Source of the DNA: Aestuariimicrobium kwangyangense DSM 21549
Lineage (GTDB): Bacteria; Actinomycetota; Actinomycetes; Propionibacteriales; Propionibacteriaceae
Assembly: GCF_000421525.1 (NCBI RefSeq)
Contig: NZ_ATXE01000004.1
Span: 1-64,000, forward strand
Length of the DNA stretch: 64,000 nt
Direction: 5' to 3'
Positions 24,853-51,033 of the stretch are shown here, in pieces (within the stretch, counting starts at the first letter, position 1; each line of letters begins with the position of its first letter). The notes under the pieces are model-generated. The model worked only from the letters and a program-made list of their open reading frames with translations, did not search any database and was not told the origin of the DNA. A program made the position numbers and the translations under genes.

Positions 24853-25800
24853 TCAGGCCTCGAAGTAGCGGAGCACCTCGTCGGCACCCACCGACCCGAC
24901 CCCGCCGACGGCGTGCTTCCAGACGGGCGCGCGGTCCTTGTCGACCAACTGGGCCCGGACCCCCTCGACGAAGTCGGAATCACGCATGAAGTTCCTGGCC
25001 AGCGTCAGGTCCTGGGCCAGCACCTCGCCCACGGTGCCCATCCCGCGGGCCCGCCGGAGCGCCTCGAGTGAGACCGCCACCGACAGCGGCGACTTGGTCG
25101 AGATCAGTTCGGCGGCCGCTCGGGCGTCGGGTTCGTCCGACGAGGTCAGGGCTTCGAGCACGTCGGCGACGGTGTCTGCAGCGAAGCAGTCATCGATCCA
25201 GCCACGCGCCCTCGCCAACCATGACGAGTCGGGGTGGACGGTCAGTTCGTCCACCTCGGTGAGCAGCCCCGCCCACAGTGCTGAGGAACAGTCGACGGAG
25301 GCGCCGGTCAGCGCCATCCACTCACCGGTCCGCCCGGGCATGCGCGAGAGCGGGAACAGCACGCCCACGTCGGGGAACAGCCCGATGGTCGTCTCGGGCA
25401 TGGCCAACTGGGTGCTGGCGTCCCCCTCCCGCTGGGTGCAGTGGGCAGCCAACCCCATGCCCCCACCCATGCAGACACCCGACATCACCGCGTGGGTGGG
25501 CTTGGGGTGGTCGGCGACCAGGGCGTTGACGCGGTACTCGTCCGCGAAGAACTGGACGGCGCCGTCACCGCCCGCCAGCACGTCCTCGCGCAGCGCCCGG
25601 ACGTCGGCCCCGGAACAGAACCCGCGCTCACCGGCACCCTCGAAGCGGATCCTGCGCACCTGGTCGTCCTCGGCCCACTCCGTCAGGGCCCGCTCGATCC
25701 GCAGGATCATCGCGTGGGTCAGGGCGTTGATGGCCCGTGGACGGTTGAGCGTGATCACTCCCACCCCGTCCCGTACCTCGACCAGCACCTCGTCAGACAT
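24853..25800 (-). CDS. Enoyl-CoA hydratase/isomerase family, likely 3-hydroxyisobutyryl-CoA hydrolase
   Basis: The 315-residue product starts MSDEVLVEVRDGVGVITLNRP with GAAGGAGA upstream. It has the crotonase oxyanion-hole motifs FCSGADVRALRED and GVCMGGGMGLAAHC, then MPETTIGLFPDVG with the Glu and Asp positions typical of 3-hydroxyisobutyryl-CoA hydrolases (ECH_2 family), which act in valine breakdown. A plain enoyl-CoA hydratase is the alternative. Its first codons overlap the end of the mannosyltransferase gene by 8 bases, making it the last member of a coupled five-gene run from 28765. Confidence 0.85.
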   Translation of the reverse strand: MSDEVLVEVRDGVGVITLNRPRAINALTHAMILRIERALTEWAEDDQVRRIRFEGAGERGFCSGADVRALREDVLAGGDGAVQFFADEYRVNALVADHPKPTHAVMSGVCMGGGMGLAAHCTQREGDASTQLAMPETTIGLFPDVGVLFPLSRMPGRTGEWMALTGASVDCSSALWAGLLTEVDELTVHPDSSWLARARGWIDDCFAADTVADVLEALTSSDEPDARAAAELISTKSPLSVAVSLEALRRARGMGTVGEVLAQDLTLARNFMRDSDFVEGVRAQLVDKDRAPVWKHAVGGVGSVGADEVLRYFEA

Positions 25801-27286
25801 CGGCAGTCTCCTTCGCGACCTCCGCGTTGGCCTGGCGCTCGTGCGCCCAGACCTGGAACCCGTAGGCGGCCAGCGCCGCGACACCGAGGGCGATGGCGCC
25901 GTTGCGCATCGACAGGTTCACGGCGGCATAGCTCAGCAACACGATGGTGGCCACGATCGCCGCCCGCACCACCTTGGCGCTGGGCCGCGCCAGCGGCAGC
26001 AACAGCCCACCCCAGAGCACGTACCAGGAGTGCAGCGCGGGAGCGAAGAGCGCGACCGCCAGGTATGACCACGCCAAGTAGGTGATCGGACGACGCCGAG
26101 CCACGGTGACGGCGCCGACGGCCAGGACCACCACGGAGGCCACCAGTCCGACGGCGCGCGAGTAGCGCACCGAGACCTCCGCCGCCTGGCGCCAGCCCAC
26201 CGATTCGAAGAGCAGCTGCAGTCCCTGACCGAGCACGGTGAACGGTGACACCGTGACCACGAGGCCCGGCACGTTGACGGCGTTGTACCAGCCGAAGTAC
26301 AGCCCGGTCACCACCGAGATGAGGGCGAACACACCCGTGGCCAGCCCCAGCGCGACGACCGCCCGGAAGATCACGATGGCACCGTCCGAGGGTGCGAAGG
26401 TTCGCCAGGGACGACGCACCAGCGGCAGTACGTAGGCCGCCAACAGAGCGGGCTGTTTGATGGTGGCGGCGATCGCCACCACCACGGCCGCGGGCAACCA
26501 GCCCCAGCGCACCTTGTGGGCGACGTAGAGGGCGAAGACCACCAGCCCCATCATCAGCGAATCGTTGTGGGCACCACCGATGAAGTCGATCACCAGCACC
26601 GGGTTGAGGGTGGCGAACCAGGCCGCGAACGCCGGGTCGACGCGCATCAGGGTCGCCAGGCGAGGGATGCACAGACCGATCAGTCCGACGCCGACGAGCG
26701 CGGGGATTCGCATGAGCAGGGCGGCGATGTAGGGATCGTAGCCAGAGACGTCGACCAGCAGGTGGCTCAGCTGCAGCGCGAACGGGCCGTAGGGCGCCGG
26801 GGTGAAGCGCCACACCCAGGCCACCTGGTCGGCGAAGCCGCCGGGCAGCACGCCGGGGCCCTGCTGGTAGGGGTCGACGCCGTTGTGCAGCATCCAGCCC
26901 TGGGCCGCGTAGGAATAGGCGTCGTGACTGAAGATGGGCGGGGCGAAGAAGAACGGTGCCCCCCAGATCGCCAGCACGGCCCAGTGCCGCAGGTCGTGCC
27001 ACGTCTCGGCGATGCCGTGCCCCGCTCCTCCCAGCGGACGGAGTCGGAACCAGGCCTGCACCAGCAGCGCCACTCCCGCCAGCACGAGGATGTTGAACGC
27101 GACCTTGGCGACAGGATTGTCCAGGTGGGCCCAGCGCATGATCGGCCACCACGGCGAATTGCGCGGCAGGTACGCGGGCGTGAGCGAGCCGACGGCGATC
27201 AGCAGCGTGCCGTACATGCCCCGGCGTACGTCGGTGACCCGCCAGGCCTCGAGCAACTGCCGCCAGCGTTCGCCCCAGAAGGTCAT
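25793..27286 (-). CDS. MptB-like polyprenol-phosphomannose-dependent alpha-1,6-mannosyltransferase (GT-C)
   Basis: The 497-residue integral membrane protein has about twelve to thirteen predicted segments. The GT-C acidic loop motif FSHDAYSYAAQGWMLHNGVDPYQQGP follows an early helix. WRFTPAPYGPFALQLSHL, NPVLVIDFIGGAHNDSLMMGLV and AATIKQPALL match the MptA/MptB family, which extends mannan cores using decaprenyl-phosphomannose. The start ATG overlaps the ferredoxin gene stop as ATGA. A lipoglycan mannosyltransferase inside an electron-transfer operon is odd. The family call is good; the lipoglycan acceptor is inferred. Confidence 0.87.
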   Translation of the reverse strand: MTFWGERWRQLLEAWRVTDVRRGMYGTLLIAVGSLTPAYLPRNSPWWPIMRWAHLDNPVAKVAFNILVLAGVALLVQAWFRLRPLGGAGHGIAETWHDLRHWAVLAIWGAPFFFAPPIFSHDAYSYAAQGWMLHNGVDPYQQGPGVLPGGFADQVAWVWRFTPAPYGPFALQLSHLLVDVSGYDPYIAALLMRIPALVGVGLIGLCIPRLATLMRVDPAFAAWFATLNPVLVIDFIGGAHNDSLMMGLVVFALYVAHKVRWGWLPAAVVVAIAATIKQPALLAAYVLPLVRRPWRTFAPSDGAIVIFRAVVALGLATGVFALISVVTGLYFGWYNAVNVPGLVVTVSPFTVLGQGLQLLFESVGWRQAAEVSVRYSRAVGLVASVVVLAVGAVTVARRRPITYLAWSYLAVALFAPALHSWYVLWGGLLLPLARPSAKVVRAAIVATIVLLSYAAVNLSMRNGAIALGVAALAAYGFQVWAHERQANAEVAKETADV

Positions 27287-27666
27287 GGGGCGGGGGTCCC
27301 GTCCGCCTCGTCGGCAGCCGAGGTCGCCATGGGGGCCAGCGCATCCCGACCGTGCACCAAGGCCTCGCGCGAGTCACCTGCAGCCACGTGAGAGCCCGCC
27401 CACTGCAGGGCGTCGAAGGGGCACTCCTCGATGCAGATGCCGCAGTACATGCACAGGGTGAAGTCGATGTCGAAGCTGTCGAGCACGTTGGCGGTGCGTT
27501 CGCGCCGTCGCCCCGGAGGACGGGCGCCCGCCGGTTCCTGGTCCGCGATCACCACGGAGTGGGAGTCGATCGAGATGCACCACGTGGGGCACTCGCGCAC
27601 GCAGATCATGCACGAGGTGCAGCGGTCCTCGAGCAGTTCGATGCGGCCGTGGCCGGTTCCGGTCAT
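27283..27666 (-). CDS. Small 2[4Fe-4S] ferredoxin, NuoI-like, of an orphan complex I-like trio
   Basis: The 127-residue protein has two complete CxxCxxCxxxC clusters: Cys16/19/22/26 (CTSCMICVRECP) and Cys72/75/78/82 (CMYCGICIEECP). It has the NuoI order with a 45-residue insert between the clusters and a low-complexity tail after residue 90. GGAGGCG precedes the ATG at 27666, which overlaps the NuoC-like stop (ATGA). The true complex I NuoI is encoded separately at 42883-43527. The most likely role is passing electrons between soluble carriers and the NuoB-like partner. Confidence 0.85.
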   Translation of the reverse strand: MTGTGHGRIELLEDRCTSCMICVRECPTWCISIDSHSVVIADQEPAGARPPGRRRERTANVLDSFDIDFTLCMYCGICIEECPFDALQWAGSHVAAGDSREALVHGRDALAPMATSAADEADGTPAP

Positions 27667-28352
27667 CGGCGCCTCCGCACGCGGCCGCCGGAGACGGTGG
27701 CGGCGACCTCCGCAGGGTCGACGTCGGCGGCGGCCAGGGGTCCCCAGGTCTCGGGGTCCGGTACCCCCACGGGCAGGGTGCGCCGGCGGGAGGCCTGGGA
27801 TCGTCCGTCGGTCTCGGGGTCCTTGGCACCGGGCCACGGGAGGCCTGCCCGCGAGACCAGCACGGAGTCCTTCAGCAGCGGGCGCAGCACCTGGGTCTCG
27901 CCCTCCGCCTGAATGGCGCCGGACGGTGTCTCGGCGCCAGGCGGTGCGTCGACCCCGGAGGGGTGCCACAACAGCGGGCGATCGTCGCCGCCGACGAACC
28001 GCACCCCGAAGAAGTCATGCACCTCACGCTCGTGCCACACCGCCCCGGGCAGCACCTCGGCCAAGGAGTCCAGGACCCCACCGACCCGGTCGACGCGGGT
28101 CTGCAGCTGCAGGCTGTCGCGTCGCAGGCCTCCCCCGCCCGACAGACCCTCGCTCGAGAGGCCGTCGGAAACCCGCCACAACCGGACGACCACGCGCACC
28201 TGCTCGGGGCCACCGGGGGTCTCCGGTCGTCCGATCTCGTCGACCGCGTGCAGGGAGTCGAGCCAGTCGAAGCCCTCGGCGACCGCGGCCCGCACCTCGT
28301 CCAGCCAGGCTGCCGGGGCGACTCGTCCGGGTCCAGCCGCCGACGCGCTCAT
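27663..28352 (-). CDS. NuoC-like (30-kDa subunit) protein of the orphan trio
   Basis: The 229-residue product begins at the ATG at 28352, which overlaps the NuoB-like stop. The diagnostic complex I 30-kDa segment is VLPGAVWHEREVHDFFGVRFVGGDDRPLLWHP, comparable with [24 protein letters not shown] in the canonical NuoC at 51033-51863. The rest is divergent, with an Arg/Pro-rich tail. In complex I and membrane hydrogenases this subunit helps dock the large catalytic subunit, yet no large subunit is encoded here. The call rests on this one motif plus context. Confidence 0.75.
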   Translation of the reverse strand: MSASAAGPGRVAPAAWLDEVRAAVAEGFDWLDSLHAVDEIGRPETPGGPEQVRVVVRLWRVSDGLSSEGLSGGGGLRRDSLQLQTRVDRVGGVLDSLAEVLPGAVWHEREVHDFFGVRFVGGDDRPLLWHPSGVDAPPGAETPSGAIQAEGETQVLRPLLKDSVLVSRAGLPWPGAKDPETDGRSQASRRRTLPVGVPDPETWGPLAAADVDPAEVAATVSGGRVRRRR

Positions 28353-28765
28353 GCCACGCCCCCGACCAGGGAGGACACGTATTCGGCCAGGGCTGACGGC
28401 GCAGGCGGGCAACCCGGGATGTAGTGGTCGACGGCGACCAGTTGGTCGACCCCCTTGGTCACCGAATAGGAGTCCCAGTACGGGCCGCCCGCGCAGGCGC
28501 AGGCGCCGAACGCGACGACTCGTCTCGACTCGGGGAGCACCTCGACCCGGTCGGCGACCAGGCGGGCCACCGGATCGGTGAGCGTCCCGGAGACGACGGC
28601 GACCACCTGCGCGCCCTCCGGGATCCTGTCAAGCCTGGGAGCGCCCACCGGAACCGCGAACTCCGACTCGACGGCACAGCACGCCAAGGAGAGGTCGACC
28701 ACGGCCACCCGACCGTCGCCGAACCAGTCGATCACCGGGGTCTGGACTGCTGACGTCACCAGCAC
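28349..28765 (-). CDS. NuoB-like (hydrogenase small-subunit-like) Fe-S protein of the orphan trio
   Basis: The 138-residue protein keeps the NuoB/PSST cluster ligands: the Cys29-Cys30 pair in SLACCAVESE, GACACAGGPYWDSY (Cys89/Cys91) and YIPGCPPAP (Cys119). The middle reads more like hydrogenase-related small subunits (GPYWDSYSVTKGVDQLVAVDHYIPGCPP) than the canonical NuoB at 51860-52417. It begins with GTG at 28765, or a second GTG 6 bases on, without a clear ribosome site. It is divergent from korA with ~228 bp between the starts, so shared regulation is possible. Confidence 0.8.
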   Translation of the reverse strand: MLVTSAVQTPVIDWFGDGRVAVVDLSLACCAVESEFAVPVGAPRLDRIPEGAQVVAVVSGTLTDPVARLVADRVEVLPESRRVVAFGACACAGGPYWDSYSVTKGVDQLVAVDHYIPGCPPAPSALAEYVSSLVGGVA

Positions 28766-28993
28766 AGACTAACGACATCTCAGATGTCGGAACCCTTCCG
28801 CGGTGCGGGAACAACTCCGGAGCGCGCACGGTTGCGGAGTAAGGTTGAGCGGCAGTGCGGAGTCTGCGCGGGAGGGCGTTTCGGCGACCCCCGGCAGGCG
28901 GCGCACCACCCACCAGCTCGACGGTCAGCGTCGCACACCGCGGCGGACCACAGGTCAAGGGCTCCCCCGAGCCCGGGAAAGCAAGAGGCAAGC
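28766..28993. promoter_or_regulatory. Divergent intergenic region between the NuoB-like gene and korA
   Basis: This 228-bp interval must contain the promoters for both divergent operons. The korA frame stays open upstream to 28784 (first ATG), but that part is Arg/Gly/Ser-rich and unlike the family, so I treat it as untranslated. No operator or sigma-factor box could be assigned with confidence. Confidence 0.4.
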
Positions 28994-30865
28994 GTGACGA
29001 AGGTCCAGACCCTCGACCGCGTCGTGATCCGGTTCGCCGGAGACTCCGGTGACGGCATGCAGCTGACCGGTGACCGATTCACCGCCGAGGCAGCAACCTT
29101 CGGCAACGACATCTCGACGCTGCCCAACTTCCCCGCCGAGATCCGAGCACCCCAGGGCACCCTGCCGGGTGTGTCGAGCTTCCAGCTGCACTTCGCCAAC
29201 TACGACATCGTCACCCCGGGCGACCGCCCCGACGTGTTGGTGGCGATGAACCCGGCGGCACTCAAGGCGAACATCGGCGACCTGGCCCACGGTGGCCTGG
29301 TGATCGTCGACACCGCCGACTTCACCAAGCGCAACCTGACCAAGGTGGGCTACGACGAGAACCCGCTCGAGAACGACTCCCTGCAGAACTACCAGGTGGT
29401 CACCCTCGACCTGACGGGCATGACCATCGGTGCCGTCGAACAGTTCGGACTCGGCCGCAAGGACTCCTCCCGCGCCAAGAACATGTTCGCCCTCGGGCTG
29501 CTGAGCTGGCTCTACAGCCGTGAGGACGGCGGCACCGAGCGCTTCCTGGCCGAGAAGTTCGCCAAGAAGCCCGCGATCCGTGACGCCAACATCGCCGCCT
29601 ACAAGGCCGGGTACGCATTCGGCGAGACCACCGAGGTGTTCGCCCACCGCTACGAGGTCTCCCCCGCGACCATGCCCCCCGGTCGTTACCGGCAGATCTC
29701 GGGCAACGCCGCGACCGCCTACGGCCTGATCACCGGGGCCCAGAAGGCCGGACTGAAGCTGTTCCTGGGCACGTACCCGATCACCCCGGCCAGTGACGTG
29801 CTGCACGAGCTGAGCAAGCGCAAGAACTTCGGCGTCTACACCTTCCAGGCCGAGGACGAGATCGCGGCCGTCGGTGCCGCCCTCGGTGCCTCCTTCGCCG
29901 GGGCGCTGGGGGTCACCTCGACCTCGGGGCCGGGCATGGCACTCAAGGCCGAGACGATCGGCCTTGCCCTGATGACCGAATTGCCCTTGGTGGTGGTCGA
30001 CGTGCAGCGCGCCGGGCCGTCCACCGGGATGCCCACCAAGACCGAACAGGCCGACCTGCTGCAGGTCATCCACGGACGAAACGGCGAGTCCCCCGTGCCC
30101 GTGGTCGCGGCGGCTTCACCGGCCGACTGCTTCGACACGGCCGTGGAGGCGGTACGGATCGCCGTCAAGTACCGCACCCCGGTGATCATGTTGTCCGACG
30201 GATACCTCGGGAACGGTGCCGAACCATGGCGCATCCCCACGATCGCGAGCATCCCGCCCATCGATCCGGGTTTCGCCACCGGCACCAACGCGGTCGACGG
30301 CTCGGGCAAGCAGGTGTTCCAGCCGTACAAGCGTGACCCCGAGACCCTGGCGCGCCCGTGGGCGGTCCCCGGCACCGTCGGGCTCGAACACCGCATCGGC
30401 GGCATCGAGAAGGCCGTCGACACCGGCAACGTCAGCTACGACCCCGCCAACCACGAACTGATGGTGCGAACCCGGCAGGCCAAGGTCGACGGCATCGTCC
30501 GCGACATCCCGGACCTTGTCGTCGACGACCCGTCGGGCGAGGCCAAGGTGCTCGTGGTCGGGTGGGGGTCGACCTATGGGCCGATCACCGCAGCCGCCCG
30601 CCGCGTTCGTGCCACTGACCGAAGGATCGCGCAGATCCACCTGCGCCACCTGAACCCGATGCCCGCCAACCTGGGCGACATCCTCAAGCGCTACGACACG
30701 GTGATCGTGCCCGAGATGAACCTGGGTCAGCTCACCATGCTGCTGCGCGCCAAGTTCCTGGTCGACGCACAGTGCTTCTCGCGTGTGCGCGGCCTGCCCA
30801 TCTCGCCGAGTGAGCTCGCCGGCGAACTGACCGAGGCCATCGACGGCCTCGCAACCGAGAAGTGA
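28994..30865 (+). CDS. korA: 2-oxoacid (2-oxoglutarate) ferredoxin oxidoreductase, fused gamma-alpha subunit
   Basis: A GTG at 28994 with GAGG upstream gives 623 residues and places the family start VTKVQTLDRVVIRFAGDSGDGMQLTG at the N-terminus. The gamma domain comes first (residues ~1-190), followed by the pyrimidine-binding alpha domain with GTYPITPASDVLHELS, FQAEDEIAAVGAALGASFAG and TSTSGPGMALKAE. Together with KorB it oxidatively decarboxylates 2-oxoglutarate to succinyl-CoA and reduces ferredoxin. The korB ATG is 5 bp after its stop. 2-Oxoglutarate as substrate is the usual assignment for this fused form; related 2-oxoacids are possible. Confidence 0.92.
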   Translation: MTKVQTLDRVVIRFAGDSGDGMQLTGDRFTAEAATFGNDISTLPNFPAEIRAPQGTLPGVSSFQLHFANYDIVTPGDRPDVLVAMNPAALKANIGDLAHGGLVIVDTADFTKRNLTKVGYDENPLENDSLQNYQVVTLDLTGMTIGAVEQFGLGRKDSSRAKNMFALGLLSWLYSREDGGTERFLAEKFAKKPAIRDANIAAYKAGYAFGETTEVFAHRYEVSPATMPPGRYRQISGNAATAYGLITGAQKAGLKLFLGTYPITPASDVLHELSKRKNFGVYTFQAEDEIAAVGAALGASFAGALGVTSTSGPGMALKAETIGLALMTELPLVVVDVQRAGPSTGMPTKTEQADLLQVIHGRNGESPVPVVAAASPADCFDTAVEAVRIAVKYRTPVIMLSDGYLGNGAEPWRIPTIASIPPIDPGFATGTNAVDGSGKQVFQPYKRDPETLARPWAVPGTVGLEHRIGGIEKAVDTGNVSYDPANHELMVRTRQAKVDGIVRDIPDLVVDDPSGEAKVLVVGWGSTYGPITAAARRVRATDRRIAQIHLRHLNPMPANLGDILKRYDTVIVPEMNLGQLTMLLRAKFLVDAQCFSRVRGLPISPSELAGELTEAIDGLATEK

Positions 30866-30870
30866 GAGCC

Positions 30871-31965
30871 ATGAGCACCGACACGACGCAACCCACCACG
30901 GGCCACCCCGCAAGCCCCGCCTACCGCGGGCTGGCGGGAGTGCCCCTGTCGCTGGAGCCACTGAACCGCAAGGACTTCACCTCCGACCAGGAGGTGCGCT
31001 GGTGCCCGGGTTGTGGGGACTACGCGATCCTGGCCGCGTTCCAGGGGCTGATGCCCGAATTCGGCATCACCCGCGAGAACACGGTGATCATCTCCGGCAT
31101 CGGCTGCTCCTCGCGATTCCCCTACTACGTCGACTCCTACGGCATGCACTCCATCCACGGACGAGCACCCGCCATCGCGACCGGGGTGGCCACCACTCGT
31201 CCCGATCTGGGGGTGTGGGTCGTGACCGGTGACGGCGACGCCCTCTCGATCGGCGGCAACCACCTGATTCACGCGATGCGGCGCAACGTCAACATGACGA
31301 TCATGCTGTTCAACAACCGGATCTACGGGCTCACCAAGGGGCAGTACTCGCCCACCTCCGAGATCGGCAAGGTCACCAAGTCCACCCCGTTGGGGTCGCT
31401 CGACCAGCCGTTCAACCCGGTTTCGCTGGCGCTGGGTGCCGAGGCGAGTTTCGTCGCCCGCACCATCGACTCAGACCGCAAGCACCTGACCGAGGTGATG
31501 AAGGCTGCGGCGAACCACCGCGGCACCTCCCTGATCGAGATCTACCAGAACTGCCCCATCTTCAACGACGGTGCGTTCGAGGAACTCAAGGGCCCGTCGG
31601 CCGCCGACGCCCTGATCCCGTTGGTGCACGGCGAGAAGCTCGTCTTCGGGCGAGACGGCCAGCAGTGCATCGTGCGTGGCCCGTCCGGTTCGCTCACCGT
31701 GGCCGCCACCGCCGAGGTGGACGAGGACCAGATCCTCGTGCACGACGCGCACCGCGCCGACCCGGCATTCGCGTTCGAACTGAGCAGGCTGACCGACTCG
31801 GGCGTGATGCACCAGTCGCCGATCGGTGTCTTCCGCGATGTCGAGCGCCCCGCCTACGACGACCTCGCCCGCGAGCAGGTCGAACTGGCCCAGCAGGGCA
31901 CCGACGATCCCGAGGACGCGCTGCAGACCCTGCTCGACGGCAAGGACGTCTGGGTCGTCGCCTGA
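30871..31965 (+). CDS. korB: 2-oxoacid (2-oxoglutarate) ferredoxin oxidoreductase, beta subunit
   Basis: From MSTDTTQPTT at 30871 the protein has 364 residues. Cluster and TPP motifs are clear: WCPGCGDYAIL, GIGCSSRFPYYVDSYGMHSIHGRAPA, the TPP-Mg site VTGDGDALSIGGNHLIHAMRRN and LFNNRIYGLTKGQYSPTS. This subunit carries thiamine pyrophosphate and a [4Fe-4S] cluster and hands electrons to ferredoxin. It is coupled to korA and ends 40 bp before the hypothetical membrane-protein gene. The divergent ferredoxin-like trio is a candidate electron acceptor. Confidence 0.95.
   Translation: MSTDTTQPTTGHPASPAYRGLAGVPLSLEPLNRKDFTSDQEVRWCPGCGDYAILAAFQGLMPEFGITRENTVIISGIGCSSRFPYYVDSYGMHSIHGRAPAIATGVATTRPDLGVWVVTGDGDALSIGGNHLIHAMRRNVNMTIMLFNNRIYGLTKGQYSPTSEIGKVTKSTPLGSLDQPFNPVSLALGAEASFVARTIDSDRKHLTEVMKAAANHRGTSLIEIYQNCPIFNDGAFEELKGPSAADALIPLVHGEKLVFGRDGQQCIVRGPSGSLTVAATAEVDEDQILVHDAHRADPAFAFELSRLTDSGVMHQSPIGVFRDVERPAYDDLAREQVELAQQGTDDPEDALQTLLDGKDVWVVA

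Positions 31966-49650: not shown

Positions 49651-49654
<4 letters not shown>
49391..49654 (-). CDS. Repeat-derived 87-codon reading frame coupled between nuoD and nuoE
   Basis: This ATG frame overlaps the nuoD stop (ATGA at 49651-49654), and its TGA overlaps the nuoE GTG (49391-49394), so ribosomes could pass through it from nuoD to nuoE. It translates almost wholly from three 75-bp repeats ([17 protein letters not shown] repeated) and ends GVDR, the same residues that end NuoD. The other two frames of this strand are also open across most of the repeats. I doubt that the peptide has its own function; the frame may persist to maintain coupling. Confidence 0.3.
49421..49639. repeat. Three tandem 75-bp repeats between nuoD and nuoE
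   Basis: Units begin at 49421, 49496 and 49571 with GGAGG(G/A)ACA and are nearly identical, the third ending near 49639. Each contains a small palindrome GCTCG-CAA-CGAGC (minus-strand reading). The period is a multiple of three. Two C/T-type changes and a G/A change are the only differences I see between copies. Confidence 0.9.

Positions 49655-51032
<1,378 letters not shown>

Positions 51033-51033
<1 letters not shown>

Follow-up and report, generated by a model that had tools for sequence, protein, structure and literature searches.

Why should a bacterium that possesses a complex I operon also keep a second, shorter set of complex I genes? The question is raised by a locus in the first 64,000 nucleotides of contig NZ_ATXE01000004.1 of Aestuariimicrobium kwangyangense DSM 21549 (Propionibacteriaceae); this whole stretch is called the window here. 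The main complex I is encoded at ~36.7-52.4 kb of the window (most of the 14 subunits were viewed). Apart from it, a trio of genes encodes the divergent proteins NuoB', NuoC' and NuoI' beside korAB, the genes of a 2-oxoacid:acceptor oxidoreductase (Kor). The best explanation found, judged from sequence comparisons, is that this trio and an unlinked NuoD' make up a soluble electron-transfer quartet, derived from complex I, which serves KorAB; the probability of this is put at roughly 0.6. Complex I is usually viewed as a set of modules, of which the Q-module works against NuoH and quinone. If the explanation is true, the lineage is a natural test of Q-module function without the pump, since over a long time it has kept the Q-module clusters while dropping the membrane arm and, in one family, quinone-site residues. 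The quartet would also be a candidate redox partner for actinobacterial KorAB.

The layout given in a preliminary description of the window, a NuoB/NuoC/NuoI-like trio with ATGA overlaps divergent from korAB, was confirmed by open reading frames and Pfam matches. NuoB' (28349-28765, reverse strand, 138 aa, GTG start) is a NuoB2-type small subunit, NuoC' (27663-28352, reverse strand, 229 aa) belongs to the 30-kDa family, and NuoI' (27283-27666, reverse strand, 127 aa) is a 2[4Fe-4S] protein with 15 residues ahead of its first cysteine. On the forward strand lie KorA, the alpha subunit (open reading frame 28784-30865; the true start, judged by eye from the reading frame, is probably near 28991), and KorB, the beta subunit (30862-31965). 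All three trio proteins passed the Pfam cut-offs for complex I Q-module families, NuoI' through Fer4 alone (NuoB' PF01058, 62.5 bits; NuoC' PF00329, 54.6; NuoI' Fer4, 47.5), and KorA matched OAFO_sf with 659.6 bits. The best NCBIfam models were those of NuoB, NuoC and NuoI, every score being under the curated cut-off (87.1 against 116, 31.5 against 122.45 and 56.3 against 113.05, respectively). NuoB' is 31% identical to the main NuoB of the window over 142 columns, and NuoI' is 35% identical to the main NuoI. The cluster ligands are intact, as had been described: NuoB' has the four N2-type cysteines (C29, C30, C89, C119), invariant across a 23-row alignment (A2), and NuoI' has all eight NuoI-type cysteines of its 2[4Fe-4S] motif.

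The preliminary description also stated that no NuoD or NuoH accompanies the trio, and raised a partner encoded elsewhere as one possibility. The whole assembly (2.99 Mb, five contigs, 100% complete) was searched with profiles. PF00346 found two NuoD-family genes: the main NuoD (49651-51033 of the window, reverse strand) and a lone divergent NuoD' (contig C4:290172-291332, forward strand, 386 aa), which is 27% identical to it and 262 kb from the trio. The statement therefore failed for NuoD, found beyond the window at 290.2 kb of the contig, and held for NuoH, since PF00146 detected a single gene in the assembly, the main NuoH. PF01058 gave only the main NuoB and NuoB'. The five PF00361 matches were the main NuoL, NuoM and NuoN and two frames on contig C1, which from their layout are probably Mrp subunits. 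A full second set of large and membrane subunits elsewhere in the genome was thus found as far as the large subunit goes, and its membrane part was not. The genes thus make a quartet, and these searches gave no membrane arm belonging to it.

In an AlphaFold model of NuoD' (predicted local distance difference test score 90.2), all 50 PDB rows shown were complex I or chloroplast NDH, with TMq 0.80-0.84. Large subunits of group 4 [NiFe] hydrogenases carry two Ni-binding CxxC motifs. NuoD' has a single cysteine and therefore lacks these pairs, and no second NuoH-type subunit was found in the assembly; the small subunits of the two systems are homologous, with formate hydrogenlyase subunit 7 and MbhJ among the weakest matches. 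Of 41 NuoD' loci, about 30, including 10 outside Propionibacteriaceae, have a presumed folate operon next to NuoD' (neighbourhoods are naive open reading frame clusters, with gene names given by eye). Because this placement is kept across families, the separation of NuoD' from the trio looks old. The conserved neighbours of NuoD' were considered as further partners, and none has an evident link. In locus L091 (9081-9470 and 12056-16546), NuoD' is flanked by an Lsr2-like gene on one side and a folate-synthesis/FtsH cluster on the other, named by eye.

Although unlinked, NuoB' and NuoD' occur together. In a draw of 147 genomes of the family, NuoB' was found in 64 and NuoD' in 68; 63 possess both and 78 neither. 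The six mismatches fall partly on incomplete genomes (G037, G042 and G089, 79-90% complete; G137, 72%), and in the other two NuoD' is either a fragment near a contig end (G116) or covered by a match of just 163 residues (G035). Where the two genes share a contig and their distance was measured (25 genomes), it is 27-3383 kb; in G011, which is not among these 25, it is 355 kb. A draw of 394 genomes of the class gave a similar picture: NuoB2 and NuoD2 in 147, NuoD2 only in seven, NuoB2 only in five and neither in 235. Both tallies were transcribed by hand from search tables, with thresholds placed by eye between the groups of scores. In the family these were 100 bits for NuoD' (the G035 fragment, at 102.7, is near the main NuoD matches at no more than 99.4) and 94 bits for NuoB', to which a G110 fragment at 69.5 bits and 53% identity was added. 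In the class they were E<1e-70 for NuoD2 and E<1e-27 for NuoB2, with G503 borderline at 3e-26.

To follow gain and loss, 81 genomes were chosen and placed on a tree of the main NuoG, NuoH, NuoI and NuoL. Eighty of these came from the other 146 genomes of the family draw; nearly all are at least 95% complete (G057 is 80% complete), and genera with variation in the quartet were favoured in the choice. NuoB' changed state 14 times on this tree, and 12 pairs differing in NuoB' lie on independent supported paths. NuoD' follows NuoB' in all 12 pairs when the G035 and G116 fragments are scored as absent (sign test p 0.0005), and in 10 of the 12, with two ties, when they are scored as present (p 0.002). 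The ratio of nonsynonymous to synonymous substitution rates (dN/dS, NG86) was 0.07-0.45 in those within-genus pairs for which it was output (the closest pairs of each group, eight or fewer), in agreement with purifying selection. Such conservation, together with the joint gain and loss of unlinked genes, suggests a free-standing electron-transfer complex.

The trio was placed among its relatives by scanning 140 NuoB loci, 80 of them named (the best 80 of 520 relatives) and 60 from genome searches. A layout was assigned to 124 of them, the remaining 16 running off contig or locus ends. The first layout, B-C-D-H-I and further genes, is mostly acidimicrobial. The second, B-C-H-I and further genes without D, is found in Streptomyces, Micromonosporaceae, Intrasporangiaceae and others. 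The third is the trio, B-C-I only. Three full nuo2 operons that were inspected have H2 after C2 without an intervening D gene, and the streptomycete nuo2 operon is described with its nuoD2 at a separate site (PMC8388888). The statement in the preliminary description that streptomycetes have a second incomplete nuo locus near kor genes proved correct according to that source and the loci inspected.

On a tree of NuoB and NuoC (125 rows, quick search, no bootstrap; long branches were flagged, among them L145, L194 and L197) 60 trio rows group in a single clade (SH-like approximate likelihood ratio test support 99). The clade contains 54 distinct loci, six pairs being identical, spans Propionibacteriaceae, Pseudonocardiaceae and metagenome-assembled genomes (MAGs) of Nocardioidaceae, Frankiales and Nanopelagicales, and is related to the actinobacterial nuo2 operon. 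Most simply, the quartet would have arisen once, by loss of the membrane subunits, followed by trimming of the surfaces that faced NuoH and the membrane. Two of the 62 trio-labelled rows lie outside the clade and were set aside as exceptions. In one, L055 (Microbispora, near a contig end), KorAB, NuoB2 and NuoC2 are separated from NuoI2 by 3.7 kb, in which no NuoH2 was found. The other, L212 (genome G176), has NuoH2 remnants between NuoC2 and NuoI2, three tblastn fragments in ~300 bases; this looks like a separate case, apart from the trio clade, of NuoH being lost from a full nuo2 operon.

These results also bear on whether the locus is simply a functionless, decaying remnant of a nuo2 operon. 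There are fewer genes, the proteins are shortened, the state changes 14 times among 81 genomes, and in G035, where NuoB' is gone, NuoD' is truncated, all of which speaks for decay. A remnant would not be expected to persist as a single clade spanning several families (54 distinct loci), with NuoB cluster ligands intact in 62 of 62 trio-labelled rows, the double motif kept in all 60 NuoI and low dN/dS, nor to have its unlinked genes lost together. Decay is therefore considered very improbable.

The linkage to Kor supports the proposed role of the quartet. KorA was found in 123 of the 147 family genomes, including all 64 with NuoB', and the 24 genomes without KorA are all without NuoB'. For 62 of these 64 genomes, NuoB' and KorA share a contig; the gap is under 1 kb in 37 and at most 10.7 kb in all 62. 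The linkage to korAB proposed in the preliminary description was thereby upheld in other genomes (within 11 kb in the 62 testable), as was its idea of a Kor-linked module whose further partner is encoded elsewhere, NuoD' being that partner and the connection probably lying at the level of ferredoxin. The Kor of Mycobacterium tuberculosis is described as an aerobically stable 2-oxoglutarate:ferredoxin oxidoreductase (PMC2773412).

A closer association with Kor is also conceivable, in which NuoI' is a KorD-like 2[4Fe-4S] subunit of KorAB and NuoB', NuoC' and NuoD' are partners of an enlarged Kor. The profile TIGR02179 (PorD_KorD) gives a sub-threshold match to NuoI' (E 1e-8, 35.1 bits; cut-off 60.05), KorD and PorD delta subunits are likewise 2[4Fe-4S] proteins near Kor, and no separate delta-like gene was noted by eye beside korAB. 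However, NuoI remains the best NCBIfam match of NuoI', which, unlike KorD/PorD, scores higher to NuoI and comes with NuoB', NuoC' and NuoD', and both NuoB' and NuoD' are missing from 56 of the genomes with Kor. An enlarged Kor of this kind is thus unlikely.

The trio also differs from the membrane enzymes at the interface. In Escherichia coli, NuoB residues 43-53, 71-76 and 86-90 and NuoI residues 23-38 are reported as built only in the entire complex; the quinone wedge consists of NuoB 58-69 and the NuoD 220-225 loop, and NuoD His224 and Tyr273 lie close to the bound quinone (PMC8357420). The SPRQAD-type motif that ends the NuoB loop is present in 34 of 34 full nuo2 loci and 28 of 28 loci with D in the operon, and in none of the 60 trio loci, NuoB' included. 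NuoI' also lacks an N-terminal segment that NuoI has: the first NuoI cysteine lies 11-37 codons after the stop of the preceding gene in the 60 trio loci and 47-75 codons after it in 46 measured loci with NuoH. This distance was unmeasurable in eleven full and five D-in-operon loci, and was measured twice in L021, once probably on its main operon.

At the quinone site, the NuoD histidine position is A, T, S, V or P in 31 of 31 Propionibacteriaceae genomes examined, and the histidine is retained in 27 of 27 NuoD2 loci outside this family, some of them with the trio (in the residue alignment L156 repeats L114). Its loss was considered as a mark of all trio lineages and rejected, being seen only in Propionibacteriaceae. 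The tyrosine position is tryptophan in all nuo2-type NuoD examined; as this includes full nuo2 operons, the replacement was likewise dismissed as a mark of membrane loss. The interface and His/Tyr changes make a quinone site shared with NuoH unlikely, at least in Propionibacteriaceae.

The same features count against the suggestion, made in the preliminary description, that the trio swaps into the main complex I. In such a swap NuoB'C'D'I' would dock on the main NuoAHJKLMN in place of the NADH-type arm, giving a ferredoxin:menaquinone complex I. At least one NuoH is indeed present in each quartet genome but G206 (78% complete), and ferredoxin is proposed as the donor for the related 11-subunit enzymes (PMC11238625). 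However, the NuoB loop and the NuoI segment are gone in 60 of 60 trio loci (54 distinct) and present in the measurable loci with their own NuoH, and both quinone-site residues are replaced in 31 of 31 Propionibacteriaceae NuoD', although the tryptophan is common to the nuo2 type. The swapped enzyme would have to dispense with the usual contacts. Docking on the main membrane arm is disfavoured by the loss of interface parts, and the suggestion is poorly supported and unlikely.

Under the soluble-quartet explanation, the trio would be three quarters of a detached complex I Q-module, completed by NuoD'. Electrons of low potential would be exchanged between KorAB, or the ferredoxin it reduces, and the two [4Fe-4S] clusters in NuoI'. 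The N2-type cluster in NuoB' would receive them next, and a soluble partner would take them up where NuoB' meets NuoD', at the former quinone site. A broader proposal, that NuoBCDI proteins encoded at two unlinked loci constitute an ancient, soluble, quinone-independent enzyme class passing electrons between KorAB and a soluble acceptor, is given slightly less than an even chance.

Several observations weigh against a quartet serving KorAB in this way. In the family, 56 genomes have Kor but neither NuoB' nor NuoD', so Kor does not need the quartet. Here the main nuo operon is in the same neighbourhood, and the closeness to kor may therefore be old synteny. Lack of OGDH was considered as a reason to keep the quartet and found no support, because OGDH (PF16870) is present in 79 of 80 genomes, quartet or not; a role of Kor as the only 2-oxoglutarate oxidase thus does not account for the quartet. 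G103 has a full-length NuoB' match but a NuoD' (C23:398265-399318) broken into two overlapping frames, which may be an assembly error or early decay; if this NuoD' is also scored as absent, 11-12 pairs agree and none is opposed, and if it alone is scored so, 10 agree and at most one is opposed. In G110 NuoB' is only partly matched. The NuoD' histidine is kept in trio genomes L158 and L180, with one NuoH each, and in L160 and L175, with five and two, so the His-keeping trio genomes outside Propionibacteriaceae may still reduce quinone.

The presence of NuoH in nearly every quartet genome could also reflect a requirement for the main enzyme. Exactly one NuoH is found in 54 of the 63 quartet genomes of the family draw, and in the class 51 genomes have both genes and exactly one NuoH. 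Three of these 51 (G265, G274 and G306) are probably not reduced forms, since their NuoH matches near 1e-100, as would be expected of nuo2-type NuoH. G274 (100% complete) has a single NuoB, NuoD and NuoH, all in the nuo2 range, and perhaps possesses a nuo2-type complex I only.

The near-constant NuoH and the location close to nuo and kor genes would both suit another role, in which the Q-module paralogues act as an assembly or regulatory factor, serving as scaffold or decoy while the main complex I or Kor is built or controlled, with no net electron transfer. A scaffold has no need for cluster ligands, yet these are kept, and this role is held to be quite improbable.

Of the known systems, the nuo2 operon of Streptomyces with its nuoD2 shares with the quartet the B2/C2/I2/D2 lineage, kor adjacency in many loci and the unlinked nuoD2, but keeps the membrane subunits NuoA2, H2, L2, M2 and others (PMC8388888). 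It also has the NuoB loop, the NuoI N-terminal segment and the NuoD histidine. In the present assembly H2 and the antiporter subunits were not found, A2, J2 and K2 not having been searched with profiles. The 11-subunit complex-I-like enzymes without NuoEFG resemble the quartet in having a Q-module without the NADH module and ferredoxin as proposed donor, but have a membrane arm (PMC11238625), and a second such arm was not found in the genome of the window. The nuo2 operon and the unlinked nuoD2 were already known. Among the literature matches listed, which cover subscription journals thinly, none was seen to describe a form without the membrane arm.

The ATGA overlaps of the trio carry on from NuoI' into an MptB-like mannosyltransferase gene (25793-27286, reverse strand). 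By its layout this gene would be in one operon with the trio; no functional link is known. In 24 of the 62 trio-labelled rows, duplicates counted, such a gene is the first one recognised beyond NuoI. Next to it, a 3-hydroxyisobutyryl-CoA hydrolase-like protein of the crotonase family (ECH_2; 24853-25806, reverse strand) is encoded outside the system.

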